32,323 nt of DNA from Prevotella sp. (GTDB taxonomy: Bacteria > Bacteroidota > Bacteroidia > Bacteroidales > Bacteroidaceae). The position numbers were made by a program, and so were the translations under genes. Shown one piece after another: positions 1 to 30,221 of this stretch. The stretch's first letter is position 1. Every line of letters starts with the position of its first letter. Location: positions 1 to 32,323 of the forward strand of contig JAGAYI010000060.1 of NCBI GenBank assembly GCA_017940545.1, written 5' to 3'. The notes beneath the pieces were generated by a model. The model saw nothing but the letters and a program-made list of their open reading frames with translations, was not told the DNA's origin and made no database searches.

Positions 1-38
1 GGATTGCCACAATTAGGGCATGTTACTGATACTATCAT
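1..38 (-). CDS. Zinc-ribbon protein, N-terminus only (runs off the left edge)
   Basis: Only the first 12-13 codons are inside the window. Reading the minus strand from the ATG at 36-38 gives MIVSVTCPNCGNP, in which CPNCG is the first half of a typical zinc ribbon (CxxC knuckle). The start lies 14 bases after the stop of the small membrane-protein gene upstream of it on the same strand, so it is probably the last visible member of the RiPP-type operon. Nothing can be said about the rest of the protein; zinc ribbons at the N-terminus often precede membrane or regulatory domains. The call rests on one motif in a short stretch. Confidence 0.5.
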   Translation of the reverse strand, partial: MIVSVTCPNCGN

Positions 39-52
39 ACTATTCGATTTTA

Positions 53-298
53 TTAATTTGAAATTAAGCTCATCAATTTATGAAAAAGGTACTCTATACC
101 ATAACCTATCCATTTTAGCGCACTTATCGCCCAATCAAATACAGGCATTCCAGTCCACTTTTGAATAAAGTAAAGAGCAGCAAAAACTAACACCGTCAAA
201 AAAACGGCCATCACCATTTTGGGATTCTTTTCAGCTTGCTGCGAGCCATTTCTATAGCCTTGCTGAAAATCACGCCCCATGTCACCTAATACTCCCAT
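53..298 (-). CDS. Small membrane protein of unknown function
   Basis: This 81-residue protein has a polar, Gly/Gln-rich N-terminus (about residues 1-27) followed by a strong hydrophobic segment at about residues 28-45 (MVMAVFLTVLVFAALYFI). A second amphipathic to hydrophobic stretch lies at about 54-75. It is therefore probably an inner-membrane protein with one or two helices. It is closely spaced with the amidohydrolase gene upstream (4 bases) and the zinc-ribbon start downstream. I do not recognise the family. Its place behind a radical SAM maturase makes a role in export of, or immunity to, a modified peptide possible, but no transport or protease motif is visible and this is only inferred from position. 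Confidence 0.65.
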   Translation of the reverse strand: MGVLGDMGRDFQQGYRNGSQQAEKNPKMVMAVFLTVLVFAALYFIQKWTGMPVFDWAISALKWIGYGIEYLFHKLMSLISN

Positions 299-302
299 AA
301 TC

Positions 303-1043
303 TTATATATTTCTAAATAATTTCAAGTAATTCTTACACAATATCTTCTCAGAAACACGAAAAGGAATTATGTCCGCAATGTTTTTTATCTGCTTATGAT
401 ACCATTCTTCATCATTTTCAAGTTCAGAAAACCAACGATTAATTGGGAAGTCACTACCAAAAAGGATTCTATCTTCGTTTGTTTCAGATACGTTAGCTTT
501 TATCTTTTCTATTGAAAGAAATGCCGTATCAATCCACACATTATCATATTTGTTAAGCAGATAAAACGCTTCACTTGAAGGACGTGCATGGCATAGAACA
601 AATATTTGCTGTTTGTATCTACTAACAATACTCTCAAATCTCAAAGCATGAGAGGAATCAATGCCACCAGTATGAATTAATAATGGCTTTTTCATTTCAC
701 CTATAACAGCACAAACATCTTCTAAGTCATTATCTGAGAAGAAAACTGCTTCTGGATGGATTTTGAATGCGCTAAATGGATATTTGACATTATAATGACC
801 CTCTTTTAACCTTTTTAATACGGCAAGATTCAAGTACAATGCTATCTGAAAACCGCACTTCAATCCTTCAGAATAAAGCACTTCATACAGCCCTAAATCA
901 TCTTCTCCACCTACACAAGCTGTGGGCATAATCAGCCCACCCTTCACTTCGTATTGACAGACAAATTCTTTAACCCCTTTAGGATAAACAATTTCTGTGT
1001 CCGACAATACCCCTACATGCAAGTGTGAATCATAAACATTCAT
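303..1043 (-). CDS. Amidohydrolase-family TIM-barrel metal hydrolase in RiPP operon
   Basis: The 246-residue product has the metal-site pattern of the amidohydrolase_2/TatD-like superfamily. DSHLHVG near the N-terminus supplies the HxH pair (H7 and H9). KIHPE, LIHTGG and LCHARP supply further Lys/His ligands, and FGSDFP near the C-terminus supplies the Asp. These enzymes hydrolyse amide, ester or related bonds in the cytoplasm; the substrate cannot be read from sequence. I chose the Met at 1041-1043 rather than the upstream ATG at 1079, because the upstream one lies inside the radical SAM gene and adds 12 non-conserved residues. The chosen start follows the radical SAM stop by 4 bases, so the two genes are almost certainly co-translated. 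In this context it may tailor or trim the modified peptide (inference). Confidence 0.8.
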   Translation of the reverse strand: MNVYDSHLHVGVLSDTEIVYPKGVKEFVCQYEVKGGLIMPTACVGGEDDLGLYEVLYSEGLKCGFQIALYLNLAVLKRLKEGHYNVKYPFSAFKIHPEAVFFSDNDLEDVCAVIGEMKKPLLIHTGGIDSSHALRFESIVSRYKQQIFVLCHARPSSEAFYLLNKYDNVWIDTAFLSIEKIKANVSETNEDRILFGSDFPINRWFSELENDEEWYHKQIKNIADIIPFRVSEKILCKNYLKLFRNI

Positions 1044-1047
1044 ATTG

Positions 1048-2514
1048 CTATGACTTATTCTTTGTCCAGTAGTCCTCAACTATTTTTTTATTCAAGAAAG
1101 CCACATCGCAAAAATGTTTATTAAGTTTGAACATATCGCCATTGCTTTCGTTATAGTTTCTCACCAAGCATCTAGAACAATAATCTTGTGCTTCACACTC
1201 TAAGCATTGTGGAAAATCCCCTTGTGTTACGCCACGAATAGTTTTTAGTTTATCTGAGTTGTCCCAAATGTCTTTCAAACTCTGTTTATATACGTTACCT
1301 ACAACCATATCTTGCCATCCTGCGCATGGATAAACATCACCATTCTCTGCTATACAGCAGTCATTAATTCCTGCTCCACAAAGAGGAAGTTTCACAAAAT
1401 TGTCATAGTTCGCATACATCATACTAGAGAACGATGCCATTTCAGATATAGCTTTTCTGTAATCAGCATTGTTCTCAATAATATCGCTTATAACCTCTCC
1501 ACTTTCTTCAACGGACAATCTATTAGCCAAATTATTTGTGTCTAAATCTGCCTGTGCCATCATTATCACGTCCACATTTACTTTACATCTTATAGACTGA
1601 GCATATCTCAGCACCTCCTTATAGCCCTTATAATTGACTTTCATCATAGGGCACGATATAACAATTGGAACATCTGCTTTTACTAATTTCTCAATCGCTG
1701 CTTTAGTCTTATCGAACGACCCTTTTACTGTAGTGATAAGGTCATGTACAGAAGCGTCCATACTATATAAAGACACCTGCACTGTTGAAACATTATATTC
1801 CTTTAAGAATGGAATCTGATAATCACGTAGAGCAACCAAATTACTGAGTATCGTTATCATCATGTCTTTCTCTCGGCAATACTTCATAATTGGTATAATG
1901 TCCTTATGCAAGAACACTTCACCACCAGACAATGTTACCTGTAAACCTCCATTATCGGCAAATTCGTCAATGATACTCTTTACCTTCTCAAAAGGCATGT
2001 CAGCACCACTATTCTTCTTAGCATTAGGTATATAACAGTGAATACAACGCTCATTACAGCGGCTTGTCAGTTCAAACTGAATACCATTAAGACGTGGTTG
2101 TCGAAGCGTGGCTTCTAACATCATATTTTGGGTGTTTTCATCTAATACGTCCTTAGAGTGTTGAGTAAAGTCATTGACCATTGTCTTCGGATTTTCCATA
2201 TCATAAGAAAAATCCAAGTCTTTCGCATCCAACTCTTCCGTTGTTTCTCCAATCACCAAAAACTTTGTTTGAACAAGTTCTTCTACAAAGGACAGAAACT
2301 CTGCTTTCAAAGCTTCATGTGTCACACTATTGCCATATAGCACTTGAAGCCTTTCTATAATACTATCTACTGACTGAGGAACACGTGAAATTTCATGGAG
2401 AAAATCTGCACCTGTCTCATTATAGATTCTGTCAAATCTTGTTAGCTGATTTGATATATAGCCTTTCCCAAAATATGACCTAATAAAGGTATTCTTACTT
2501 TGTCTTACTAACAT
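1048..2514 (-). CDS. Radical SAM/SPASM peptide maturase with N-terminal PqqD-like region
   Basis: This 488-residue protein carries the radical SAM [4Fe-4S] motif CxxxCxxC as CNERCIHC (C153, C157, C160), preceded by FELTSR. The C-terminal third is a SPASM domain for auxiliary Fe-S clusters: LCGAGINDCC, then GDVYPC, then CLECEAQDYCSRC and a last HFC. SPASM enzymes install thioether or C-C crosslinks in peptides. The first ~90 residues have the size and pattern of a PqqD-like RiPP recognition element, which binds the precursor's leader. No in-frame start exists upstream of 2514 because TAA lies five codons before it. A GGAGGGGG stretch lies about 17 bases upstream. A 41-aa Cys-containing ORF ends 57 bases before it. 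Maturase of that peptide is the best call; the exact bond chemistry is unknown. Confidence 0.88.
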   Translation of the reverse strand: MLVRQSKNTFIRSYFGKGYISNQLTRFDRIYNETGADFLHEISRVPQSVDSIIERLQVLYGNSVTHEALKAEFLSFVEELVQTKFLVIGETTEELDAKDLDFSYDMENPKTMVNDFTQHSKDVLDENTQNMMLEATLRQPRLNGIQFELTSRCNERCIHCYIPNAKKNSGADMPFEKVKSIIDEFADNGGLQVTLSGGEVFLHKDIIPIMKYCREKDMMITILSNLVALRDYQIPFLKEYNVSTVQVSLYSMDASVHDLITTVKGSFDKTKAAIEKLVKADVPIVISCPMMKVNYKGYKEVLRYAQSIRCKVNVDVIMMAQADLDTNNLANRLSVEESGEVISDIIENNADYRKAISEMASFSSMMYANYDNFVKLPLCGAGINDCCIAENGDVYPCAGWQDMVVGNVYKQSLKDIWDNSDKLKTIRGVTQGDFPQCLECEAQDYCSRCLVRNYNESNGDMFKLNKHFCDVAFLNKKIVEDYWTKNKS

Positions 2515-2571
2515 AATTGCTGATAATTAATCCCCCTCCACCACTCTTAACGTAGAGCTTACGCTTCAACA

Positions 2572-2697
2572 TTAGTCACGCAGCATACAAGAATGCCAGC
2601 ATCCTCTTGCGCCTGGAGTGCTTTCTGGGCAACCTGCAGCATAAGAACCTGCAGGATTGTTCACTGCTTCGAGCTTTACACTTTTGAACTGTTTCAT
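2572..2697 (-). CDS. Candidate RiPP precursor peptide, 41 aa, three cysteines
   Basis: I found this short ORF by reading the minus strand between the maturase and the 89-aa protein. It starts MKQFKSVKLEAVNNPAGSY, a Lys-rich, leader-like N-terminus of about 19 residues. It continues AAGCPESTPG then ARGCWHSCMLRD and stops at TAA. The cysteines are at positions 23, 33 and 37, giving the pattern C-x9-C-x3-C with a Trp after the middle Cys. Size, a leader/core split near the GSYAAG stretch and direct adjacency to a SPASM maturase with a PqqD-like domain are what is expected of a RiPP substrate. The core could receive thioether (sactipeptide/ranthipeptide-like) or C-C links. I cannot assign it to a named precursor family. 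It could still be a non-substrate small protein. Confidence 0.72.
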   Translation of the reverse strand: MKQFKSVKLEAVNNPAGSYAAGCPESTPGARGCWHSCMLRD

Positions 2698-2783
2698 AAT
2701 GTCAAAATTTAAAATACATGCCTACTCTTTGAAGGATTTTCGGCTTACTCCTTTTACTAAAATATTACTATTCCCTTATAAAA

Positions 2784-3053
2784 TCAAGGATTACATAATA
2801 GATTATCTATTCTCTTCTGAATCTGATCTTTTTCTTCATTATTAATTATTGCAGGAGGTGGAACCGCTTCTTTTATTTGGTCACCGATTCCATCAGAAGA
2901 CAAATCTGGTGTTACTTCTAAGGTATTTCCGCCTAATGGAACTGGAATAACATCATCCGTACTATGAATGCCTGTGAAGTCCTCAATTTTACGTTCAATT
3001 GGTGCTTTAGATGCAGAAACATAAGACACTGCGTTTTCAGTTTTTTTAGCCAT
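2784..3053 (-). CDS. Hypothetical acidic protein at the head of the RiPP operon, 89 aa
   Basis: The protein starts MAKKTENAVSYVSASK and is followed by an acidic, Pro/Gly-containing stretch (VIPVPLGGNTLEV, KEAVPPP) and a C-terminal KDQIQKRIDNLL helix ending CNP. There is no signal peptide or membrane segment. A GTG at 3084-3086 would add 11 residues, but the ATG at 3051-3053 is preferred because it follows AAGAAGT and begins a typical MAKK N-terminus. It lies first after a good -7 box at 3145-3152 and about 86 bases before the precursor candidate. I recognise no family. It could be a second leader-type substrate, a partner of the maturase, or unrelated. Confidence 0.6.
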   Translation of the reverse strand: MAKKTENAVSYVSASKAPIERKIEDFTGIHSTDDVIPVPLGGNTLEVTPDLSSDGIGDQIKEAVPPPAIINNEEKDQIQKRIDNLLCNP

Positions 3054-3144
3054 ACTTCTTATTATTGATTGTTTATTACATACCACAACAAGGAAGGTGT
3101 GAGCCTCTCAGTCTATCCTACCGAAGGCTCTGGTAAAACCCGTA

Positions 3145-3152
3145 CAAAGATA
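3145..3152 (-). promoter_or_regulatory. Bacteroidetes -7 box (TATCTTTG) for the RiPP operon
   Basis: On the minus strand the sequence reads TATCTTTG, a perfect match to the TAnnTTTG -7 element. No clear TTTG is seen 19-21 bases upstream. Transcription would start near 3138 and give an untranslated leader of about 85 bases before the 89-aa gene. That leader contains a 6-bp stem, GAGCCT at 3125-3130 pairing with AGGCTC at 3101-3106. Confidence 0.5.
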
Positions 3153-3196
3153 AAAGAAACAGCCCACACCCTTGGAGGATATACTGGATGTGAGCC
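3153..3196 (-). terminator. Possible intrinsic terminator just upstream of the RiPP promoter
   Basis: Read on the minus strand, GGCTCACATCC (3186-3196) can pair over 11 positions, three of them G-U, with GGGTGTGGGCT (3161-3171) around a 14-base loop. GTTTCTTTTA follows. G-U pairs favour the minus strand over the plus strand. It would end any transcript from the box at 3343-3350 and insulate the RiPP operon. Confidence 0.4.
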
Positions 3197-3399
3197 AATG
3201 ATGGCTACACAAGGAATAATCCAACCAAGGAGGGAACGTGTTCACAATCACCTGTTGTACGGTTAAGTTTACCAGACTTTTCGGTACAGATGAAAGCTAA
3301 ACGCTTCCTACTATGTTCGCCGCCCATTACTGAACGACGTAGCAAAGATAAGAAATATTTAGCAAACTACGCTCAATGTGGGCTGCATTTTTACATTTT

Positions 3400-3693
3400 T
3401 TATCTCAGCGTCTGAATCTGGACGGTACCGCCCTTGGACATGAAGCGCATCTGGGGACCCTTGTAGTTCTTGGGATAGGCCACGCAAATGTCGCCTGTAC
3501 CCTCCCAAATCTCGACGCCACCATTGAGGCCTGTCTGCCTGAGGTCACCATCATACCAAATCATCACTCCACCATGATTGAGGCAGTTTGAGGGTTGAGA
3601 ACCTTGGAAATAGGCTGTGCCGTAAGTCCAGTCGGCCATTGCGGTCAACAACATGCCACAGAACACGAACAGAATCATTAATCTTTTCATCAT
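3400..3693 (-). CDS. Small secreted protein of unknown function
   Basis: The 97-residue product begins MMKRLMILFVFCGMLLTAMA, a clear Sec signal peptide with likely cleavage after AMA (position 20). The mature part is about 77 residues, rich in Gly, Trp and Tyr (ADWTYGTAYFQG, GGVMIWYDGD, GGVEIWEGTGD), which suggests a small beta-rich domain with internal similarity between the two GGVxIW segments. Two Cys (in SNCLNHGG and DICVAYP) could form a disulfide. A TACCTTCG box (3731-3738, minus) upstream resembles a -7 element. I do not recognise a family. It sits downstream of the kinase operon on the same strand but has its own likely promoter. Confidence 0.65.
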   Translation of the reverse strand: MMKRLMILFVFCGMLLTAMADWTYGTAYFQGSQPSNCLNHGGVMIWYDGDLRQTGLNGGVEIWEGTGDICVAYPKNYKGPQMRFMSKGGTVQIQTLR

Positions 3694-3824: not shown

Positions 3825-5108
3825 CTACGGCAGTTTGTTTCCATTGACGAATGCACGATGCTCCAGACGGTCCTTATATTTCCGGGTGTAGGTACTGACC
3901 GGATTCATAGGACTCTCATACAAAGGGCAGAACCATTCGTCGGCCTTGATTCGCGCTAATGTCCTGCTCAGTATTTCCTGATAACGCGTCATATAGGAAT
4001 GGTGCGTAGGGTACTTCTGGAAGTTGGCAGTATCGTCAAGAAAAGCATTCGCCTCACTATAATATTTGTCAAGTTGCTGTTTATAACGAGAAAACTCGTC
4101 TGTAGTTGCTATGTGCAAATGTGGCTGACCAAGAAATGCTTTCTCTTCCTCGGAAAGGTCACTCTTTATGGGAGATTGTTTCGCCTGGATTTTTTGCTGT
4201 TCCTTGTCTGCAACAGCCACTTTGCTTTCACGCTGCTCAGCCGGCTGCACGATTTCTTTTACCAAGACTGTTTCTGGCTGTTCACTATTACTTTCCTGTT
4301 GAGGTTCTGCAATTCCGGCTGAAGGCTGATTTCGGTTTATCCAGAAGTAGAAACCGAGGGTCAGCACAAGAGCAAGTATCACTAAAGGCACCAATAATCT
4401 ATGTCGCCTTTTTGGAAACAAAGCATTCTGCAAGTCTTCAATAGTCTGATAGCGGTCTTCAGGACTTTCGGCTGTGCAGCGGGCTATCACCTTATTATAT
4501 ATATGGTGATGAGGCCGTTTTTCGAGTATCTTTCCGATGGCATAGATGTCCGTACGCTCATCGACGGCTCCGCCCGACAACTGTTCTGGAGCGGCAAAAC
4601 CATTGGTACGTCCTTGTGTGTCAACAAAAGTGTCAGTATAGCAACAGCCGAGGTCTATCAGCTTGACATCGCTGTTGATGCGGGTCAGCATGATGTTATC
4701 GGGTTTCAGGTCGAGATGGAGCACTTGGTGGCTGTGCAGACAGGCTACGGCATCCAACAACTGACAAAGGAACTTCTCGGTATTCTTTTTACTCTCAAAA
4801 TAGTCGGGATGACGGGATAGCCGCTGGCTGAGTGTTTCACCGTCAACATACTCCATCAGTATGCCGTCATCGGAAAGGGAGAGGTAACGGACGATGTTGG
4901 GGTGCTCCAGACGATAGCCCGTTTCAAACTCCTTGCGAAAGGCCTCCTGATATCGGATATCGCCAGCATACTGAGGCTTCAACCGTTTCAGGAAGTGCAG
5001 TTTTCCATAGAGCTTTACACGGTAAGTGTCGCAAGTGGCCCCATTGGTGTCAACGGGTTCCATTCCCTCAAAACGAGGCTGTGCTTCTGAGAATTGTGAC
5101 GAGTCCAT
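3825..5108 (-). CDS. Transmembrane Ser/Thr protein kinase (eukaryotic-like)
   Basis: The 427-residue protein has a cytoplasmic kinase domain at about residues 20-230. FLKRLK supplies the ATP-site Lys (K41) and EFETGYRLEHPNIVRY the helix-C Glu. HLDLKPDNI is the catalytic loop (D133, N138), LIDLG the metal site (D152), and FAAPEQ the APE-like motif, followed by DIYAIGKIL. A single membrane helix (about 238-256, LLVPLVILALVLTLGFYFW) leads to a ~170-residue outer segment rich in Glu, Gln and Lys. The Arg of the HRD motif is Leu and DFG is DLG, so it is a non-RD kinase. The glycine-rich loop is poorly conserved. It lies third in an operon after a lipoprotein and an HTH-like protein, which suggests an envelope signalling module. 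Confidence 0.88.
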   Translation of the reverse strand: MDSSQFSEAQPRFEGMEPVDTNGATCDTYRVKLYGKLHFLKRLKPQYAGDIRYQEAFRKEFETGYRLEHPNIVRYLSLSDDGILMEYVDGETLSQRLSRHPDYFESKKNTEKFLCQLLDAVACLHSHQVLHLDLKPDNIMLTRINSDVKLIDLGCCYTDTFVDTQGRTNGFAAPEQLSGGAVDERTDIYAIGKILEKRPHHHIYNKVIARCTAESPEDRYQTIEDLQNALFPKRRHRLLVPLVILALVLTLGFYFWINRNQPSAGIAEPQQESNSEQPETVLVKEIVQPAEQRESKVAVADKEQQKIQAKQSPIKSDLSEEEKAFLGQPHLHIATTDEFSRYKQQLDKYYSEANAFLDDTANFQKYPTHHSYMTRYQEILSRTLARIKADEWFCPLYESPMNPVSTYTRKYKDRLEHRAFVNGNKLP

Positions 5109-5155: not shown

Positions 5156-5707
5156 TCAGACAAGCCTAATGGAGGAGAGTCCTGACACGCGGCCGGCCGT
5201 AAACTGTCCGAGCGACTCACCATTGCGCCACACTTGGACAACCAACAACGGATGATGAAGCACGAAGTTCAGAATCTCCACTTCGTCGTCGGCCTGCAGT
5301 TTACTGTTCTGGCTCTGTTCCACCTTGTAGCGGTTATTCCCGAGATACCTCAACGTCACGACACGGTCGGGCAGATAGGCGATTTCCACCACCTTGCCAA
5401 CCTGCAAGTCTGCCGAGCGGACCTCATCGTCAGAGCTGTTGAAATCAGAGTTTCCCTGGTCTTCTATCTTCGCCAGTTCTTCCCAATGGGCATAGCCTAA
5501 GTAGCGTGCAATTGCGTCGAGCGTCGATACATGGGGTGTACGCTCATCCTGAGCAAAACCCAGCAATCGTTTCAACGTAGTGGCTCCAATGCGGACTCCC
5601 GTCTTGCCCTGAATGTCAAGTGACAGCAGTTCACAGTCAGAAGGTAGGTGCAAGTCGTTAGCCGACTTCCGCTTCAGTAGTTCTATGACATGAAATGGTA
5701 ACTTCAT
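5156..5707 (-). CDS. Helix-turn-helix-like protein with C-terminal beta domain
   Basis: This 183-residue protein has in its first half a stretch, GVRIGATTLKRLLGFAQDER then STLDAIARYLGYAHWEEL (about residues 36-80), that looks like an XRE/Cro-type helical bundle. Similar stretches occur in several Bacteroidetes proteins. The second half (about 95-180) is beta-rich, with KVVEIAYLPDRVVTLRYLGN and a C-terminal segment, and may be a ligand or oligomerisation domain. I prefer the Met at 5705-5707 because its ATGA overlaps the stop of the lipoprotein gene, a translational-coupling arrangement. An ATG two codons earlier is also possible. It sits between the lipoprotein and the kinase, so it may be their regulator or a kinase substrate. 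No close family is recognised. Confidence 0.65.
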   Translation of the reverse strand: MKLPFHVIELLKRKSANDLHLPSDCELLSLDIQGKTGVRIGATTLKRLLGFAQDERTPHVSTLDAIARYLGYAHWEELAKIEDQGNSDFNSSDDEVRSADLQVGKVVEIAYLPDRVVTLRYLGNNRYKVEQSQNSKLQADDEVEILNFVLHHPLLVVQVWRNGESLGQFTAGRVSGLSSIRLV

Positions 5708-6087
5708 ATCCACTGCTCCGGTGTGCTGTCTTCCGGGAATCCCATGATGCTCTTGATGATGCCCATCAGTTCAGTACCTACACCTAAGATGCGGTCAAGC
5801 AGTCCCTGTTTGGCTCCCTGCACCATATATCTGGCACACTGGCCTTCCAGTTCACCGATACGAGCTTTCTCAGCACTCGTATAGTCCTGCTCGTGCTTGG
5901 CAATCTTCTTACGTATCTCCACAAACTTCTCGCCAGCCTGCTGCCACTCGTCAGCACCATACCTGGCACTATGGTCACGCAGTTCATACGAGAAATCTTC
6001 CAACTGACTGATGGCATGCTGCTTCGTGGAGCACGAAGCCAGCACCAGGCCCATCACGCCGACTATCATCAAATTCCGAATCTTCAT
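5704..6087 (-). CDS. Small lipoprotein, first gene of the kinase operon
   Basis: The 127-residue product begins MKIRNLMIVGVMGLVLASCS. LASC is a lipobox, so it should be lipid-anchored after cleavage before the Cys at residue 17. The mature part is mostly helical and charged (FSYELRDHSARYGADEW, FVEIRKKIAKHEQDY, KARIGELEGQCARYM) and resembles a short helical hairpin. The end, LMGIIKSIMGFPED, is more hydrophobic. I used the Met at 6085-6087 since it begins a standard signal peptide; a Met three codons upstream is less likely. A full Bacteroidetes promoter lies just upstream. It overlaps the HTH-like gene by 4 bases. Function unknown; it could be the envelope sensor for the kinase. Confidence 0.75.
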   Translation of the reverse strand: MKIRNLMIVGVMGLVLASCSTKQHAISQLEDFSYELRDHSARYGADEWQQAGEKFVEIRKKIAKHEQDYTSAEKARIGELEGQCARYMVQGAKQGLLDRILGVGTELMGIIKSIMGFPEDSTPEQWI

Positions 6088-6359: not shown

Positions 6360-7973
6360 CTATTCCCACTCGATGGTTGCGGGTGGCTTGGACGAGATGT
6401 CGTAGCAGACGCGGTTGACGCCACGCACCTTGTTGATAATCTCGTTGCTGACCTTGGCCATGAAGTCGTAGGGCAGATGGGCCCAGTCGGCCGTCATCGC
6501 GTCGGTCGAGGTAACGGCACGCAGGGCCACGGGGTGCTCGTAGGTACGCTCGTCGCCCATGACGCCAACGCTGCGGACGGTGCTCAGCAGGATGGCTCCC
6601 GCCTGCCATACCTTGTCATAGAGGCTGATGCCGTCGATGTCCGTATATTCGCGGAGGCCACGGATGTAGATGTCGTCAGCATCCTGCAGGATACGTACTT
6701 TTTCACGCGTGATGTCTCCCAATATGCGTACAGCCAAGCCCGGCCCTGGGAACGGGTGACGCGAAATCAGGTGTTCGGGCATTCCTAACTGACGACCCAC
6801 GCGGCGCACCTCGTCCTTGAAGAGCCACTTCAAGGGTTCACACAGCTGCAGGTTCATCTCCTTGGGCAGTCCGCCGACGTTATGGTGGCTCTTGATGACC
6901 TTGCCCGTGATGTTGAGCGACTCGATGCGGTCGGGATAGATGGTGCCCTGTGCCAGCCAGCGGGCATCGGTAATCTTCTTGGCCTCGGCATTGAACACTT
7001 CGACGAAGTCGCGGCCGATAATCTTGCGCTTCTGCTCGGGGTCGGTAACACCTTCCAGGTCAGCAAAGAACTTTTCTGAGGCATCTACGCCAATGACGTT
7101 CAGTCCCAGGCCCTGATAGTCGTCCATGACCTGCCGGAACTCGTTCTTGCGCAGCATGCCGTGGTCAACAAAGATACATGTCAGTCGCTGACCGATGGCA
7201 CGGTTGAGCAACACTGCTGCCACACTCGAGTCCACACCTCCCGACAGGCCGAGTATCACACGGTCGTCGCCCAACTGCTGTTTCAGCTCGGCTACCGTAG
7301 TATCTACGAAGCTTGCGGCACTCCAATTCTGTTTTGAGCCGCAGATATCGACGACAAAGTTGTGGAGCAGCTGTCTGCCTTGCATGGTGTGAAACACCTC
7401 CGGATGGAACTGGACGGCGAAGACGGGAGCATTGAGTGAAATAGGCGACGGAGCGTCGGGAATGGAATTGGCCACCGCTGTACCGGAAGGGCACCAGAAG
7501 GCGGCATTCTGCACATCTTTTGTAGAACCGATGACCTTGAAGCCGTCGGGAATGGCGGTGATGGTGTCACCATGCGACATCCATACCTGCGAACCCTTCT
7601 CGAAACCCTTGAAGAGGGGATTCTCCAGGTCGATGGTCTCCAAGTGGGCACGACCGTACTCGCGCGAGTCAGCTTTCTCCACCTTGCCGCCAAGGGTGTG
7701 CGAAATGAACTGCGCACCATAGCAGATGCCCAGTACGGGCAAGCGGCCTACGAACTGCGACAGATCGACCTTAAAAGCCTCCGGGTCGTGTACTGAATAG
7801 GGCGAACCAGAGAGAATGACTCCTATGATGGAGCCTGATTGCAAATCTGCCTCAACCGTGTGAAACTTGTTGTAAGGCAGAATCTCGCAGAAAGTGTCGA
7901 GTTCGCGGACGCGGCGACCAATCAGCTGAGTGGTCTGCGAACCGAAATCGAGGATAATGATTTTCTGTTGCAT
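6360..7973 (-). CDS. guaA: GMP synthase (glutamine-hydrolysing)
   Basis: GuaA converts XMP, ATP and glutamine to GMP, the last step of guanine nucleotide synthesis. The 537-residue product starts [20 protein letters not shown]. The N-terminal class I glutamine amidotransferase has GICYGAQ (nucleophile Cys near residue 84) and the His-Glu pair in FAVQFHPEV. The ATP pyrophosphatase domain has the PP-loop [10 protein letters not shown]. The C-terminal dimerisation domain ends [10 protein letters not shown], the canonical GuaA tail. I chose the Met at 7971-7973; the open frame extends 15 codons upstream into the end of the neighbouring murU-like gene. The gap to that gene is 4 bases, so the two are co-transcribed. 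Length is usual for the family. Confidence 0.97.
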
Positions 7974-7977
7974 ATAT

Positions 7978-8718
7978 TTATATGATTTTAATAAATTCTT
8001 CTGCTTGGTCCAGAGCATCGAGCTTGCCTACGTCGAGCACCTGCAGGTCGTCCTTGATGCATCCGTAAATACGGGAGCGGTGACAGGTGGAGAGGTAGAA
8101 GTCGATGATGCTGAACTTATCGGGGAAACGCTCCATGAGCGGAAACAGCCGGGGCGAGAAGCTATGGATGCCGCTGAAGGCAAAGGCGTTAAGTGAGGAG
8201 TGGTTTCCCTGCCGCAGCCACGGATAGGGGCTCTTCACCTCTCCCGTCTCAACATTGGTCCATCCCATCAGCCGCATGCTGTTGTCGAACAGCAGGTAGC
8301 GCTTGGTCTTACGCCGGCTGACTAACAGCACGGCATCCTCGTCGGGCTCGTGTTGACGGGCGAACCACCCATAGTCAACATTGTCAAGGATATCGACGTT
8401 ATGAATAAGTATGGGTGCATCGTCGTCGAACAGCGGTGCAGCCTTCTTCAGTCCGCCGCCCGTGTCGAGCAGTTGGCTGCTTTCATCGCTGATGCGCACG
8501 ATGGGGGCATAGTCTTGCTGAGCCACATGGTCAACAATCTGCTGTGCGAAATGATGGACATTGACCACAAAGCGACCGTACCCCTGCGACTGTAATTTGC
8601 GGATGTTACGGTCAAGCAGCGGCACTCCGCCCACCGGAACCAGTGCCTTGGGCATGGTGTCGGTCAGGGGCTTCAGTCTTGTGCCTAACCCTGCAGCCAG
8701 TATCATTGCTTGTTTCAT
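7978..8718 (-). CDS. Sugar-1-phosphate nucleotidyltransferase, MurU-like
   Basis: The 246-residue protein begins [20 protein letters not shown], the nucleotide-binding signature of the NTP-transferase family. [24 protein letters not shown] and HNVDILDN follow, the last being the metal-binding region. The short length without an acyltransferase repeat and the TGGG segment resemble MurU, which makes UDP-MurNAc from MurNAc-1-phosphate in peptidoglycan recycling. The presence of an AmgK-like kinase gene 0.6 kb away supports that over a generic sugar role. I used the Met at 8716-8718, since translation from the earlier Met at 8748 adds a hydrophobic, non-family stretch. A promoter -7 box ends five bases before this ATG. 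It is co-transcribed with guaA. Confidence 0.8.
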
Positions 8719-18437: not shown

Positions 18438-18473
18438 GAATTAGGAGTTAGGAGTTAGGAGTTAGGAATGGGG
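18436..18473 (+). repeat. GGAGTTA tandem repeat after thiL
   Basis: The 38 bases after the thiL stop are four to five copies of a 7-8-base unit of the type TTAGGAGT (TTAGGAATTAGGAGTTAGGAGTTAGG...). A weak stem, GCCC-AGAA-GGGC followed by TTGTTTGTT, lies at about 18482-18502 and could end the operon. There is no coding content. Confidence 0.65.
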
Positions 18474-18563
18474 AATGAGTTGCCCAGAAGGGCTTGTTTG
18501 TTAAAAAACATTAAGCAGAAGCAAATTTCTCATTCCTCCTTTCTCATTTCTAATTTTTCTTTA

Positions 18564-18571
18564 TACCTTTG
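18564..18571 (+). promoter_or_regulatory. -7 box for tRNA-Phe
   Basis: TACCTTTG matches TAnnTTTG and lies 32 bases before the tRNA. The -33 position carries only a T-rich stretch (TTCT). Confidence 0.55.
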
Positions 18572-18602
18572 CACCCGCAAACGAAAGGAATGCAACCAAA
18601 AT

Positions 18603-18675
18603 GGTGCCTTAGCTCAGTTGGTAGAGCATCGGACTGAAAATCCGTGTGTCCCCGGTTCGATTCCTGGAGGTACCA
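18603..18675 (+). tRNA. tRNA-Phe (anticodon GAA)
   Basis: The 73-base sequence folds as a tRNA. The acceptor stem is GGTGCCT/AGGTACC with one G-U pair; the D-arm is GCTC-AGTTGGTA-GAGC; the anticodon loop is CTGAAAA, giving GAA; the T-arm is CCCGG-TTCGATT-CCTGG, with one C-T mismatch in the stem. CCA is not encoded. A long reading frame that runs through it toward the pantothenate kinase is not real coding sequence in this part. Confidence 0.95.
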
Positions 18676-18689
18676 CTCCTCCTTTCATT

Positions 18690-18727
18690 GCCCCGGTATT
18701 CCGTGATGGAGCCGGGGTTTCTTTTTA
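18690..18727 (+). terminator. Terminator after tRNA-Phe
   Basis: CCCCGG (18691-18696) pairs with CCGGGG (18712-18717) and is followed by TTTCTTTTT. It lies 15 bases after the tRNA and ends about 17 bases before the pantothenate kinase start. Confidence 0.75.
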
Positions 18728-18743
18728 TACTAAAACCGTTATT

Positions 18744-19577
18744 ATGGGAATCATTATTGGCATTGACGTCGGTATCAGCACGACAAAGATTGTAGGACTG
18801 AAAAACGGAAAGGTTATTTCGCCTATTCGCATTTCAGCCGCAGACCCTATCACCTCACTTTACGGAGCATTTGGCAAATACCTGCACGACAACGGTATTG
18901 ACCTGAAGGATGTGGAACAGGTCATGCTTACCGGTGTTGGTGCAGCCTACATTGAAGGCGACGTCTATGGACTGCCGACGGCACATACCGACGAGTTTGT
19001 GGCCGACGGTCTGGGCGCCCGCTTTGAGTCGGGGCTGCAGAAAGCCATCGTAGTCTCAATGGGTACGGGCACCAGTTTCGTGCAGTGCGACTGTCACGGC
19101 ATCCGCCACATTGGCGGCATCGGCATTGGCGGCGGTACGCTGCAAGGGCTCAGCCGCGTCATGCTGAACACGAACAACATCAAGCAGGTAGCATCGATGG
19201 CCATGCAGGGTGACATCAGCCACATCAACCTGCTCATCGGCGACATTACCAACCACCCTCTGCCCGGTCTGCCCATGAATGCCACGGCTTCACTTTTCAG
19301 CCGTGCACAGTACGACGCTCCGAAAGAGGACATTGCTCTGGGCATCATCGTCATGGTGCTGCAAAGCATTGGCTCGGCCAGCGTATTGTCGGCCCTGAAT
19401 ACTGACATCAAAGACTTTGTGCTGATAGGCAATCTGACGCTGCTGCCACAATGCAAGGAAGTGTTTCCCCTGTTAGAAAAGCTCTACAAGGTTCACTACC
19501 ATATTCCCAAATATGCTGAATTCTGTACGGCCATTGGTGCGGCCCTGAGCTACGAGAAGCAACAGCACTCAGCGTAG
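18744..19577 (+). CDS. coaW: Type II pantothenate kinase-like protein
   Basis: Type II pantothenate kinases phosphorylate pantothenate, the first step of coenzyme A synthesis. The 277-residue protein starts MGIIIGIDVGISTTKIVGLK, an ASKHA-fold phosphate loop. VMLTGVGAAYIEGD, VSMGTGTSFVQCD and GGIGIGGGTLQGLSRVML follow, as in the bacterial type II (Fumble-like) enzymes, and FVLIGNLTLLPQC lies near the end. The start is the ATG at 18744, just after the tRNA terminator; the same frame is open far upstream, through the tRNA. The last codons overlap the convergent HD-domain gene by 9 bases. A related BadF-type ATPase is the alternative. Confidence 0.85.
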   Translation: MGIIIGIDVGISTTKIVGLKNGKVISPIRISAADPITSLYGAFGKYLHDNGIDLKDVEQVMLTGVGAAYIEGDVYGLPTAHTDEFVADGLGARFESGLQKAIVVSMGTGTSFVQCDCHGIRHIGGIGIGGGTLQGLSRVMLNTNNIKQVASMAMQGDISHINLLIGDITNHPLPGLPMNATASLFSRAQYDAPKEDIALGIIVMVLQSIGSASVLSALNTDIKDFVLIGNLTLLPQCKEVFPLLEKLYKVHYHIPKYAEFCTAIGAALSYEKQQHSA

Positions 19578-23787: not shown

Positions 23788-23818
23788 TTTGTATTGTTCT
23801 CACTTATTCGTACCTTTG
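23788..23818 (+). promoter_or_regulatory. Promoter of the B12 locus
   Basis: TTTG (23788-23791), 19 bases and TACCTTTG (23811-23818) place the transcript start at about 23824, immediately before the riboswitch. The upstream part also contains an A/T dyad, AAAACAAAA/TTTTGTTTT. Confidence 0.8.
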
Positions 23819-23823
23819 CAGCG

Positions 23824-24000
23824 TCAATTGGTTCACACACGACATGTGATGAAAAAGGGAAACAGGTGCAAGTCCTGTACTGTCCCGCAGCTGTGAGCCG
23901 CCTTTACAGGGTGTAAACACAAGAGCCACTGTCCTACTGACGGGAAGGCGTTTATGCCAGGCGGCGAGTCAGAAGACCTGCCGTTGACGAGTGGTCACGA
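23824..24000 (+). promoter_or_regulatory. Cobalamin riboswitch 1
   Basis: The conserved adenosylcobalamin-aptamer pieces appear in order: GGGAAACAGGTG at 23858-23869, CAAGTCCTGTACTGTCCCGC, GCCACTGTCCTACTGACGGG, and the B12 box GAGTCAGAAGACCTGCCG at 23966-23983. It lies directly after the promoter and 50-70 bases before btuB. B12 binding is expected to shut off translation or transcription of the downstream uptake genes; the platform hairpin was not resolved. Confidence 0.95.
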
Positions 24001-24049: not shown

Positions 24050-26056
24050 ATGAAACGACTCACCGTATTAGCACTCCTGTGCTTTATGGTACTGTGTGTT
24101 TACCCGCAAGGTGGCACGCCCGGCTCGCTGGACAGCATCCAGCAGGTCGGCGAGGTCATTGTGTGGGCCAAGCCGACCTACCGTGAGGTCATTCCCAGCC
24201 ACGTCATGAAGGGCGAGCAGTTAGAGCGCCTCAGCACCCACTCCATAACCGACGCGCTGCGTTACTTTGCCGGCGTACAACTGAAGGACTACGGCGGCGT
24301 GGGTGGCATCAAGACCATCAACATCCGCTCCATGGGTTCCAGCCACCTGGGCATCTTCTACGACGGCATACAGTTAGGCAACGCCCAGAACGGACAGATA
24401 GATTTGGGGCAGTTCTCACTGGACAATGTCGAGGAAATCTCGCTCTATAACGGTCAGAAGAGTGCCATCTTCCAGCCTGCAAGCGAGTTCGGCAATGCCG
24501 GAGCCGTTTACATACGCACCCGTCGTCCCCGTTTCGCTGAGGGCGAGAACCACCACCTGAGGTTCAAAGTGAAGTACGGCTCAAGCGACCTGATACGTCT
24601 CTCCGCCTTGTGGGAGCAGAAGCTGTCGCAAACCGTCAGCAGCAGCGTCGGTGCAGAGTTCCTCAACAGTAGCGGCAAGTACAAGTTCCGCTACACGCGC
24701 TACCGGGCCGACGGCACGCTGGCCTACGACACCACGGCCGCCCGCCAGAACGGTGACATCTGGGCCCTGCGTGCCGAGGGTAACCTGTATGGCATATTCA
24801 ACCAGGGCAGCTGGAACGCCAAGGCCTACACCTACCACTCCGAGCGCGGCATCCCGGGAGCCATTGTCAACAACGTGTGGCGGCGCGGCGAGCGGCAGGC
24901 CGACCACAACACCTTCCTACAGGCATCGCTCATGAAGAGCTTTGGCACGCGCTACACCACTCGCATGCTGGCCAAATATGCCTACTACCAGACGCACTAC
25001 GTGAACCGCGACCCCAACACCATGCTTGTAGATAACACCTACCGCCAGCAGGAACTGTTCTTCTCCACCTCACATGTCTATGAGCTGATGGACGGCTGGA
25101 GCCTCTCAGCAGCCTACGACTTCAAGTGGAACAAGCTGAATGCCGACATGCGCCAGTTTGCCTATCCGCACCGCTACGCCAACATGCTCTCCGTAGCCAC
25201 TGCCTACAACCAGCCATGGCTCAACATACAGGGTTCCATACTGGCCACCTTTGTGAAAGACCATACCCGCACGCTCAGCAGCCAGCCCCACACCACGGCA
25301 CTCACGCCGGCCTTGTTTGTCAACGTGTTTCCCTTCGGCGGCCGCAGCTTTTCACTACGTGCCTACGCCAAGCGCAGCTTCCGCATGCCCACCTTCAACG
25401 ACCTATATTATACCGACATGGGCAACGCCCTGCTGGAACCGGAAACGGCCTTGCAATATAACGTTGGTTTCGTGTTTGAGAAAGACTGGCAGCAGGGCCT
25501 GCTCCGCCACTTCCGCTGGCAGACCGATGCCTACTACAACAGCGTTCACGACAAGATAGTGGCCTACCCCAAGGGGCAGCAGTTCCGCTGGACCATGCTC
25601 AACCTGGGCAAGGTACACATCAAGGGTGTTGACGTAGAGACAGAGGCCGCCGTCGCTCCCGTCAAAGACCTGCTGCTCTCGGTGCGGCTGCAATACACCT
25701 ATCAGGATGCCCGCGACGTGACCAACCCTTCCGACACCTACTACCGCCACCAGATTCCCTACATTCCATGGCACAGCGGCTCCGCCATTCTCGGACTCAG
25801 CTACCGCCAGTGGGACGTGAACTACAGTTTCATCTATGCCGGAAAGCGCTACAACCAGCAGGAGAACATTGCCTACAACTACATGCCGGCATGGTACACG
25901 AGCGACCTCTCGGCAGGCTACAGACTGCGACTGGGGAATTACGGATTACGCGTGATGGCAGAGGTAAATAACCTGCTGGACCAGCAGTACGACGTCATAC
26001 TGAACTACCCCATGCCGGGACGTAACTTCGCGGTTACGCTGACGATGGAGATGTGA
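24050..26056 (+). CDS. btuB: TonB-dependent outer-membrane vitamin B12 receptor
   Basis: The 668-residue protein has a signal peptide, MKRLTVLALLCFMVLCVYPQ. A TonB-box-like EVIVWAK follows, then a plug domain (about residues 35-150; ITDALRYFAGVQLKDYGGVGGIKTINIRS, LGIFYDGIQLGNAQNGQIDL). A 22-strand-type barrel rich in aromatic residues ends RNFAVTLTMEM. The length is that of BtuB-like receptors. The cobalamin riboswitch immediately upstream and the BtuG-like and BtuH-like lipoproteins downstream identify the substrate as B12 or a related corrinoid. The start at 24050 follows AGGAAAGTT. A run of short repeats separates it from the next gene. Confidence 0.93.
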   Translation: MKRLTVLALLCFMVLCVYPQGGTPGSLDSIQQVGEVIVWAKPTYREVIPSHVMKGEQLERLSTHSITDALRYFAGVQLKDYGGVGGIKTINIRSMGSSHLGIFYDGIQLGNAQNGQIDLGQFSLDNVEEISLYNGQKSAIFQPASEFGNAGAVYIRTRRPRFAEGENHHLRFKVKYGSSDLIRLSALWEQKLSQTVSSSVGAEFLNSSGKYKFRYTRYRADGTLAYDTTAARQNGDIWALRAEGNLYGIFNQGSWNAKAYTYHSERGIPGAIVNNVWRRGERQADHNTFLQASLMKSFGTRYTTRMLAKYAYYQTHYVNRDPNTMLVDNTYRQQELFFSTSHVYELMDGWSLSAAYDFKWNKLNADMRQFAYPHRYANMLSVATAYNQPWLNIQGSILATFVKDHTRTLSSQPHTTALTPALFVNVFPFGGRSFSLRAYAKRSFRMPTFNDLYYTDMGNALLEPETALQYNVGFVFEKDWQQGLLRHFRWQTDAYYNSVHDKIVAYPKGQQFRWTMLNLGKVHIKGVDVETEAAVAPVKDLLLSVRLQYTYQDARDVTNPSDTYYRHQIPYIPWHSGSAILGLSYRQWDVNYSFIYAGKRYNQQENIAYNYMPAWYTSDLSAGYRLRLGNYGLRVMAEVNNLLDQQYDVILNYPMPGRNFAVTLTMEM

Positions 26057-28976: not shown

Positions 28977-29966
28977 ATGAAACAGCGAAACATTCTTTTC
29001 TCATGGGCCTTGCTCACGGCCGTGCTTTCTCCGGCGCAGTCCAAGTATATTCAGGCAGTTGACGAATATGTCCCGGCACCCGGGCAGTTCGTCAACACCC
29101 TGCCTGAGGCTACGACGAGCGACACCCCCGCCAGCATGGCCCAGAAATGCACCGAGGCCATAGCCAACGACAATGGCGGCATGATTACCCTCGGGGCGTG
29201 GGGCGGCTACGTGACGTTCCACTTCGACCACCCTGTGACGAATGTTGCCGGCGAGCGTGACTTCGCCGTGTGGGGCAATGCCTTTTCCAACAACGCCGAG
29301 CCTGCCATTGTCATGGTCAGCTGCGACGACAACCACAACGGCAAGCCCGACGACGAGTGGTACGAACTGCGCGGCTCTGAGTACGACAACCCCCAGACCC
29401 TGCACCACTATGAGCTGACCTACGTCTTCGATGCCCTGAACGACGTGCAGTGGACCGACAACCAGGGGGGCTCCGGCAGCGTGCGGCGCAATAAATTCCA
29501 TCAGCAGGAATACTTCCCGCTGTGGCTCGCTACCCAAGGCACGCTGACCTTCAGCGGCTGCCGTCTGCCTGACAATGCCGTGAAGAATGGAAACTCGTTC
29601 CTGCTGCCTGCCTACGACTTCGGGTATGCCGACAACCATCCCAACAGCAACCGCGATGGCTGTTCCATGGACATTGGCTGGGCCGTCGATGCCGACGGTA
29701 ACCCGGTAACCCTTGACCACGCCGACTTCATTCGCTGCTACAACGCCATGAATCAGGTGTGCGGCACCATTGGCGAAACATCCACGGAAATCATGGGAGC
29801 AGAAGACCTGCACCCCGATGCCACTGGCATCAGCCCTGTCACCTCATCATCCGACACTCAACCCTCAAGCTATTACAGTCTTGACGGACGCAAACTGTCT
29901 GGTCCACAGCAGGGCGTGAACATCGTCAGGATGAAGAACGGCACCGTCCGTAAAGTGAAAATGTAA
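28977..29966 (+). CDS. Secreted stand-alone paralogue of the BtuG-like C-terminal domain
   Basis: The 329-residue protein has a non-lipoprotein signal peptide (MKQRNILFSWALLTAVLSPA) and then a ~250-residue domain. By eye this is clearly homologous, over its whole length and at roughly 60% identity, to residues 407-660 of the protein at 26175. Shared segments are AVDEYVPAPGQFVNTLPEAT, DFAVWGNAF, WTDNQGG, QQEYFPLWL and YADNHPNSNR. The metal-loop-like segment is DDNHNGKPDDEWYE. It ends with a T9SS-like tail, YYSLDGRKLSGPQQGVNIVR. It is eight bases after btuH. A B12-related binding or scaffolding role is inferred from context; the family's biochemical function is not known to me. Confidence 0.8.
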   Translation: MKQRNILFSWALLTAVLSPAQSKYIQAVDEYVPAPGQFVNTLPEATTSDTPASMAQKCTEAIANDNGGMITLGAWGGYVTFHFDHPVTNVAGERDFAVWGNAFSNNAEPAIVMVSCDDNHNGKPDDEWYELRGSEYDNPQTLHHYELTYVFDALNDVQWTDNQGGSGSVRRNKFHQQEYFPLWLATQGTLTFSGCRLPDNAVKNGNSFLLPAYDFGYADNHPNSNRDGCSMDIGWAVDADGNPVTLDHADFIRCYNAMNQVCGTIGETSTEIMGAEDLHPDATGISPVTSSSDTQPSSYYSLDGRKLSGPQQGVNIVRMKNGTVRKVKM

Positions 29967-29970
29967 CACA

Positions 29971-30140
29971 TCAATTGGTTCACTCTTAGCGAGTGATTAA
30001 AAGGGAAACAGGTGAGAATCCTGTACTGTCCCGCAGCTGTAAGCCTCCCTTATGGGGTGCAAACACATGAAAGCCACTGTCCTACCTGACGGGAAGGCGT
30101 TTGCACCAGGAGGCGAGTCAGAAGACCTGCCGTTGAGATG
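29971..30140 (+). promoter_or_regulatory. Cobalamin riboswitch 2
   Basis: The same aptamer pieces as at 23824 recur in order: GGGAAACAGGTG at 30003-30014, ATCCTGTACTGTCCCGC, GCCACTGTCCTACCTGACGG and the B12 box GAGTCAGAAGACCTGCCG at 30115-30132. It begins a few bases after the stop of the preceding gene and controls the large gene at 30222. No separate promoter was found between them, so it may act inside the read-through transcript. Confidence 0.93.
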
Positions 30141-30221
30141 ACGAATACCCAGAGGCTACGAGGAAGGCCCTTGGTAACACAAAGCTCCGTGAAGCATGTA
30201 TTTTTCTAAAACATTATGATT

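Follow-up and report, generated by a model that had tools for sequence, protein, structure and literature searches.

A compact operon on the - strand of a contig from a gut Prevotella sp. is best explained as a pathway for a ribosomally synthesized and post-translationally modified peptide (RiPP) of a family that seems to be new. The window analysed is a stretch of 32,323 nt which forms the entire contig C25 (JAGAYI010000060.1 in assembly GCA_017940545.1) of a metagenome-assembled genome 70.5% complete. The operon contains a short precursor peptide, a maturase that combines a RiPP recognition element (RRE) with radical S-adenosylmethionine (radical SAM) and SPASM domains, and a metal-dependent amidohydrolase; among the genes compared, these three are the conserved unit. 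Two features of this RRE-radical SAM family are unusual: a pseudoknot RNA, DUF805b (RF02914), lies before the precursor gene, and the amidohydrolase seems to follow the peptide core. The reading is carried by gene content, conservation, co-occurrence, RNA covariation and predicted folds. We give a probability of roughly 0.8 to the explanation as a whole, that is, a RiPP operon with the processing steps proposed below, under RNA control and carried as island cargo, of a family named in neither Pfam, NCBIfam nor the literature searched.

The precursor gene (2572..2697, - strand) adjoins the maturase and encodes a 41-aa peptide with three cysteines, MKQFKSVKLEAVNNPAGSYAAGCPESTPGARGCWHSCMLRD, which belongs to a family of 24 peptides. 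A genome scan gave 15 related loci, and more were obtained from searches of the genus, the phylum and the order. Loci whose precursor contains GS[YF][AV]AGC are called type A; there are 22 with 24 precursors, L015 having a second one, and L035 is counted with its duplicate L013. Of the 6594 open reading frames (ORFs) examined, 25 contain the motif: 24 adjoin 22 maturases, and the remaining one is in the duplicate L035. Because 24 of the 25 motif ORFs adjoin maturases, the pairing of precursor and maturase is not due to chance. Homologous maturases consistently lacking a neighbouring Cys peptide, the case that the initial annotation had set against its own inference, did not turn up: a precursor stands beside 22 of the 23 clade maturases, and the one without, L011, is truncated within the gene at a contig end and is excluded from later counts.

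The leaders are alike across the family (roughly MKxYxKPxxxAKNxP; written with the motif, MKxYKKxxxxAKNxPxGSYAAGC), and the GSYAAGC block is near-invariant across type-A precursors. From its Cys, a hypervariable linker of 8–24 residues extends to a C-terminal Cys pair. This pair forms a CxxC end in 23 of the 24 peptides, and the next residue is E in 18 of these, D in 4 and Q in 1; extra cysteines occur in L004, L105 and L106. Some type-A leaders share with those of a sister family described below a YxxP motif (Y4..P7), which is given in the accessible text of PMC12710340 as an RRE recognition motif of lasso peptides. V or A replaces P7 in most type-A leaders, and the window has F4..V7. A double-Gly leader was found in none of the 24 precursors. 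The window precursor matches no Pfam or NCBIfam family at E up to 1, and five of its relatives match no NCBIfam family at E up to 10.

The maturase (1048..2514, - strand) is a protein of 488 aa in which Pfam recognizes Radical_SAM (4.9e-24) and SPASM (2.3e-10), with CxxxCxxC at residues 153–160. The same motif and both domains are found in 18 of the 19 family members scanned, the 19th being a 95-residue fragment, and a PqqD domain is matched by Pfam in 16 of 19 (best 4.3e-09). The AlphaFold model of the whole window protein, with a predicted local distance difference test score of 85, has PDB matches to CteB, SuiB and SkfB. Its N-terminus is strand-rich and then three-helical, and the alignment to SuiB starts at residue 2. 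By way of its homologues and this model, the window copy is assigned a predicted N-terminal RRE. In L105 the precursor is separated from the usual maturase by a second, different radical SAM maturase (7283-8596), whose CxxxCxxC is intact.

The third conserved gene (303..1043, - strand, ATG at 1043) encodes a divergent, 246-aa metal-dependent TIM barrel of the Amidohydro_2 type (PF04909), which scores 33.1 bits against a curated score of 26.4 (E 6.3e-08). The metal ligands HxH, KxH, H, H and D are invariant in all 15 amidohydrolases aligned, and the gene is present in 18 of the 20 loci readable downstream. A pair of loci, L008 and L015, bears on its role. Their maturases are 97% identical in protein, and their DNA is 95.5% identical over 4955 positions outside two blocks, within which identity falls to 60% and 58%. 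The first of these blocks extends out of the precursor core into the small gene that follows. Block two covers amidohydrolase residues 45–154 (45 of 108 identical) and is flanked by stretches with 41 of 44 residues identical before it and 90 of 96 after it. An intergenic stretch, L008 2219-2338, is also lower, at 80%. In L008 numbering, block two includes K95, H97 and H128 together with the intervening loops, and the remaining ligands lie in the constant flanks. Because the two loci differ mainly in the core and in the middle of the amidohydrolase, the pair suggests that the amidohydrolase would read the peptide core. Across the family, leader similarity tracks maturase similarity (r 0.43, p 0.0001) and core similarity does not (p 0.20).

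The DUF805b element (2719..2753, - strand) lies 21 nt 5′ of the precursor ATG. At 49.9 bits it passes the gathering score of 35.6, as the Rfam family requires. It is the only match in the source genome, which is incomplete and for which 150 of 756 first-look candidates were scored, and none was found in 14 control genomes. At the gathering score the element lies directly before 14 of the 24 precursors, in 13 of the 22 loci, which hold 20 matches in total. A model built here from 19 elements (18 of type A and one from L045) recovers the element in 18 of 22 loci, ahead of 20 of 24 precursors, with L006 and L013 weak (E 0.006); this count is not independent, since the sequences counted largely made the model. 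The 18 element-bearing loci are those with the amidohydrolase, and L016 and L017, which are without the RNA, are not readable downstream. The distance from the GGC of the element to the precursor ATG is 19–27 nt.

The element is read as an H-type pseudoknot, a fold supported by base changes. Helix 1, as drawn by Rfam, pairs positions 1–4 with 18–22, and helix 2 (GCC/GGC) pairs 10–12 with 34–36, the two helices crossing. Covariation was assessed on 36 matches, 32 of them distinct, in an alignment fitted to helix 1 only, and therefore helix 2 is the fairer test. It has 96.9% standard pairs, with changes on both sides in all three pairs. The score of the whole structure is 0.326, against 0.146 ± 0.020 for shuffled alignments (0/500) and 0.022–0.113 for slid controls. 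Similar covariation is seen on 19 sequences aligned without structure; further pair types are no more numerous than in the shuffles (215/500). RNAalifold recovers helix 2 unasked, not helix 1. In cmscan, the structure line of RF02914 shows helix 1 only; our data also support a second helix that crosses it. No paper on 'DUF805 RNA' was found in the openly available literature searched.

Upstream of the operon, on the same strand, lie a Ser/Thr protein kinase of 427 aa with, by inspection, one hydrophobic segment (3825..5108; Pkinase 1.8e-25) and a companion of 185 aa with a TLKRLxG motif (5156..5713). Loci with 4.7 kb or more of upstream sequence were searched for the pair within 5 kb before the maturase; L004, L008 and L016 are too short. 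The pair is present in 11 of 19 type-A loci: the window, L005, L006, L007, L015, L041, L043, L044, L104, L105 and L106. L045 also has the kinase, which is on the maturase strand in 12 of 12, and the three type-A loci that came to light once the association had been noticed all have it. We estimate that chance placement within this distance is below 1% per locus, for one to a few copies per roughly 3 Mb. Pfam names nothing above cut-off for the companion, and its helix-turn-helix label is by inspection only. Of 100 genus genomes, 55 carry the companion gene (E up to 1e-8). A kinase was called in 15 of 20 regions around companion copies away from a type-A maturase (in L076 in two pieces), and the pair is therefore a wider module. 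PADLOC gave only generic kinase similarity of the PD-T4-6 type and viperin-domain similarity; a viperin was rejected, the pVip matches being read as similarity of the radical SAM core. Another kind of radical SAM/SPASM gene lies near the kinase pair at L087:3600-5156, where an M42 peptidase gene follows, and at L090:12359-13969.

Five of 11 scanned kinase regions without a type-A maturase have the RNA element at gathering score (L077, L078, L080, L089 and L093). In one of these kinase-pair regions (L078:11107-12426) it precedes a 79-aa candidate precursor, which is followed by an ATP-grasp peptide maturase (TIGR04187, 2.2e-59, at 201 of 350 bits below cut-off). A third precursor type, MKEYSAPQALTTLVKENKSLLGKAIASGDMVCCSKC, has two DUF805b-like elements in tandem, one at the Rfam score (L045:8794-8996). 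The RNA thus stands about 20 nt before a precursor or candidate precursor in three types: type A, a second radical SAM type (L045) and an ATP-grasp type (L078). DUF805b may serve as common translational control in a Bacteroidales conflict-island regulon that is headed by the kinase with its companion and takes up modified peptides unrelated in chemistry; the type-A amidohydrolase would then be a dedicated partner, swapped together with the hypervariable core. We regard this wider picture as possible, short of probable.

The sister family is seen on seven plasmid records with a full-length relative at 35–37% identity, five of them from E. coli and one each from Salmonella and Photobacterium. 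Three of these loci (L031, L032 and L033, on E. coli, Photobacterium and Salmonella plasmids typed as conjugative) have a two-gene cassette of precursor and maturase. Their 38-aa Pro/Arg/Cys precursor, MSYSKPTVLAKSSTYMAQCRPNSKPSGRPCNPPGPSGR, is identical and lies 76–78 nt upstream; a recombinase precedes it as an annotated gene in two plasmids and as a recombinase-like ORF in the third. Although E. coli plasmid records have the cassette, the E. coli complete-genome collection has no near copy of it. Close sister versions are found in Bacteroidales and in one more distant member of the phylum. The sister family is without amidohydrolase or RNA: DUF805b reaches the gathering score in 0 of 7 loci, and with the model built here the three plasmid loci give no match up to E 1.

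Type A itself is rare and patchy. In the genus draw 5 of 200 genomes match, one of them (G100) with the third type; in a larger, overlapping draw 9 of 388 match, seven with type A, G100 with the third type and G1007 with the sister family. Two of 395 phylum genomes match (the source genome and one sister), and seven of 393 order genomes (the source genome, five sisters and the type-A genome G650, whose record is that of L013). With the precursor profile, part of the first-look candidates being scored, the window alone matched in the 395 phylum genomes. L016, on a contig of Hydrogenedentota rather than Bacteroidota, has a type-A precursor with a partial maturase (1930-3320). The maturase tree places the window weakly, beside a long branch (59/73). 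A phage origin of the window copy was rejected (viral contigs, 4 pattern matches and 0 relatives; phage, 26 records and 0 covering 80%), as was a plasmid origin (331 records, 7 covering 80%, the matches being of the sister family or weak).

In the proposed pathway, the leader would dock on the N-terminal RRE of the maturase through its YxxP/V-type motif. The radical SAM-SPASM enzyme would then cross-link the core, most likely via Cys, the thioether being the likeliest link. In sactipeptides and ranthipeptides, Cys thioethers reach an alpha or a beta/gamma carbon. GSYAAGC and the C-terminal CxxC would serve as ring anchors with a hypervariable loop between them. The amidohydrolase would act on the modified core by bond hydrolysis or trimming, less likely by decarboxylation, or by destroying the product as self-protection. 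The bottromycin-type amidohydrolases PurAH/BotAH have dinuclear zinc and hydrolyse a follower peptide. The order of docking, cross-linking and amidohydrolase action is taken from the enzyme families. The upstream pseudoknot would set translation of the precursor, and the operon would commonly be cargo of the kinase-plus-companion island. Chemistry, product, regulation and effect are thus put conditionally, as predicted from sequence.

Several observations weigh against this explanation. The window peptide is odd, its CxxxC end (GCWHSCMLRD) being the sole exception among 24. The PqqD-like region proposed in the initial annotation is borne out in the relatives; the window maturase itself has no Pfam PqqD match. 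The window amidohydrolase is only 23–29% identical to the others, and L009 and L010, one clade and hence one event, are without both amidohydrolase and RNA. The kinase is absent in 8 of the 19 loci (L003, L009, L010, L012, L013, L014, L017 and L042). The RNA element also precedes non-RiPP genes. In the kinase regions and elsewhere in type-A loci it lies 14–26 nt ahead of, among others, the genes of TM2 and CD225 membrane proteins, lipoprotein-like genes and the gene of a PDDEXK_4 protein, as well as the L045 and L078 precursors; for one L005 copy the next ATG is 48 nt away. A simple scan of the flanks of 20 loci gave no exporter motif, apart from one false match in the L015 kinase. A statistical coupling of core and amidohydrolase is not claimed. 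Its partial-Mantel p moved from 0.011 with 15 loci to 0.03 with 18 (partial r 0.215); leaving out L008 raises it to 0.05, leaving out L008 and L044 to 0.12, and leaving out the window to 0.22. Because it is weak over 18 loci and dependent on the window and L008, the coupling is a lead only, carried by a single swapped pair and a single outlier. Given the maturase, leader similarity tracks the amidohydrolase too (r 0.31, p 0.002), and therefore the split into leader with maturase and core with amidohydrolase is not clean.

Alternatively, the amidohydrolase could protect the producer by destroying or disarming the finished peptide, and so change whenever the core changes. The joint difference of core and amidohydrolase middle between L008 and L015, the window being an outlier in both, and the lack of another conserved candidate immunity gene among the genes compared agree with this. 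However, a core-binding tailoring enzyme would give the same pattern, which is not robust over 18 loci, and the substrate behind the invariant ligands is only presumed; we consider protection rather unlikely. The peptide might instead be the source of a small cofactor, like PQQ or mycofactocin, given the near-invariant GSYAAGC, the RRE-SPASM enzyme, the TIM-barrel enzyme in the operon and no exporter recognised nearby. A Cys-rich end preceded by a linker of varying length and sequence, which differs even where operons are near-identical, fits this poorly, as does a distribution of 7/388 genus and 2/393 order genomes (own included), and a cofactor is quite improbable.

That the peptide stays in the cell and acts with the kinase in a signalling or anti-phage island is suggested by the same-strand kinase upstream in 12 loci counting L045, by its PD-T4-6-type similarity and by the scanned flanks of 20 loci being free of an ABC exporter motif, the false match aside. 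Nevertheless, the kinase is missing from 8 of 19 loci, the PADLOC matches are to a generic kinase domain, and the companion is far commoner than the operon, so that we hold such a role to be unlikely. As for the 35-nt element, its shortness, its strong conservation and a possible DNA-binding companion gene nearby would suit a DNA operator. The compensatory changes in both helices, the failure of slid controls and the narrow distance to the precursor start codon argue for RNA, and make an operator very unlikely.

All six operon genes are on the - strand with successive gaps of 86, 57, 4, 4 and 14 nt, so that the genes, order, strand and spacing, mostly under 90 bases, given in the initial annotation agree with ours. 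Its inference of a RiPP operon of unnamed class holds for the conserved precursor, RRE/SPASM maturase and amidohydrolase, with the chemistry still predicted, and fails in its six-gene extent. The 89-aa protein (2784..3053, - strand), which belongs by operon position only, and the 81-aa small membrane protein (53..298, - strand) are orphans with relatives in 0 other loci and 0 of 59 other genus genomes; short hydrophobic ORFs in several other loci are without sequence similarity to the latter. The claimed zinc-ribbon protein is a stub of 12 codons, MIVSVTCPNCGN (1..38, - strand), its gene being cut by the contig edge. The upstream RNA, the kinase pair and the odd CxxxC end had been overlooked. 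A secreted-looking 97-aa protein (3400..3693, - strand) adjoins the kinase, and an ORF similar by eye adjoins the kinase in L088. A guaA gene (by inspection; 6360-8018) lies upstream of the operon and also shortly before the L011 maturase, a possible common insertion place. Elsewhere in the window, a cobalamin riboswitch (23811-23999) precedes a TonB-receptor-like gene (24050-26056), and a second one (29958-30148) follows two alike surface-protein-like genes. A mechanical ORF (18468-19577) overlaps a tRNA-Phe (18603-18676) and probably has its true start further inside.

Our study gives an orphan structured RNA family concrete, testable target genes, and describes a RiPP family with a fixed leader and a naturally hypervariable core. 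L008 and L015, as a possible natural swap, name an amidohydrolase segment that may read the core. The sister family, in turn, is found on conjugative plasmids of distant Gram-negative hosts.

Other systems pair similar components. The FtsH-ternary system pairs a radical SAM enzyme with a peptide, in the portion of PMC7159879 available; a link to it was set aside, no such genes having been noticed here and no search having been aimed at them. The Bacteroidales RiPPs with GG leaders and PCAT exporters, as far as the accessible text of PMC10352776 describes them, likewise have radical SAM-modified precursors and belong to the same order, whereas none of the 24 type-A precursors has a GG leader and no ABC-type motif was seen in the flanks scanned. 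Bottromycin PurAH, in the accessible text of PMC10885120, is likewise an amidohydrolase inside a RiPP operon; here the enzyme is of the Amidohydro_2 family (PF04909), and no YcaO gene was noticed. The precursor motif, the sister cores and the amidohydrolase combinations appeared in no paper of the literature searched, which left subscription papers mostly outside. The window maturase falls far short of the NCBIfam equivalog cut-offs of AlbA (90 of 850 bits), SkfB (68 of 300), StsB (82 of 625) and PapB (65 of 340). To our knowledge, the type-A leader and core are unlike those of CteB, SuiB, SkfB and AlbA. What type A has in common with these four is the order of RRE, radical SAM and SPASM domains and the short precursor adjacent to the enzyme.

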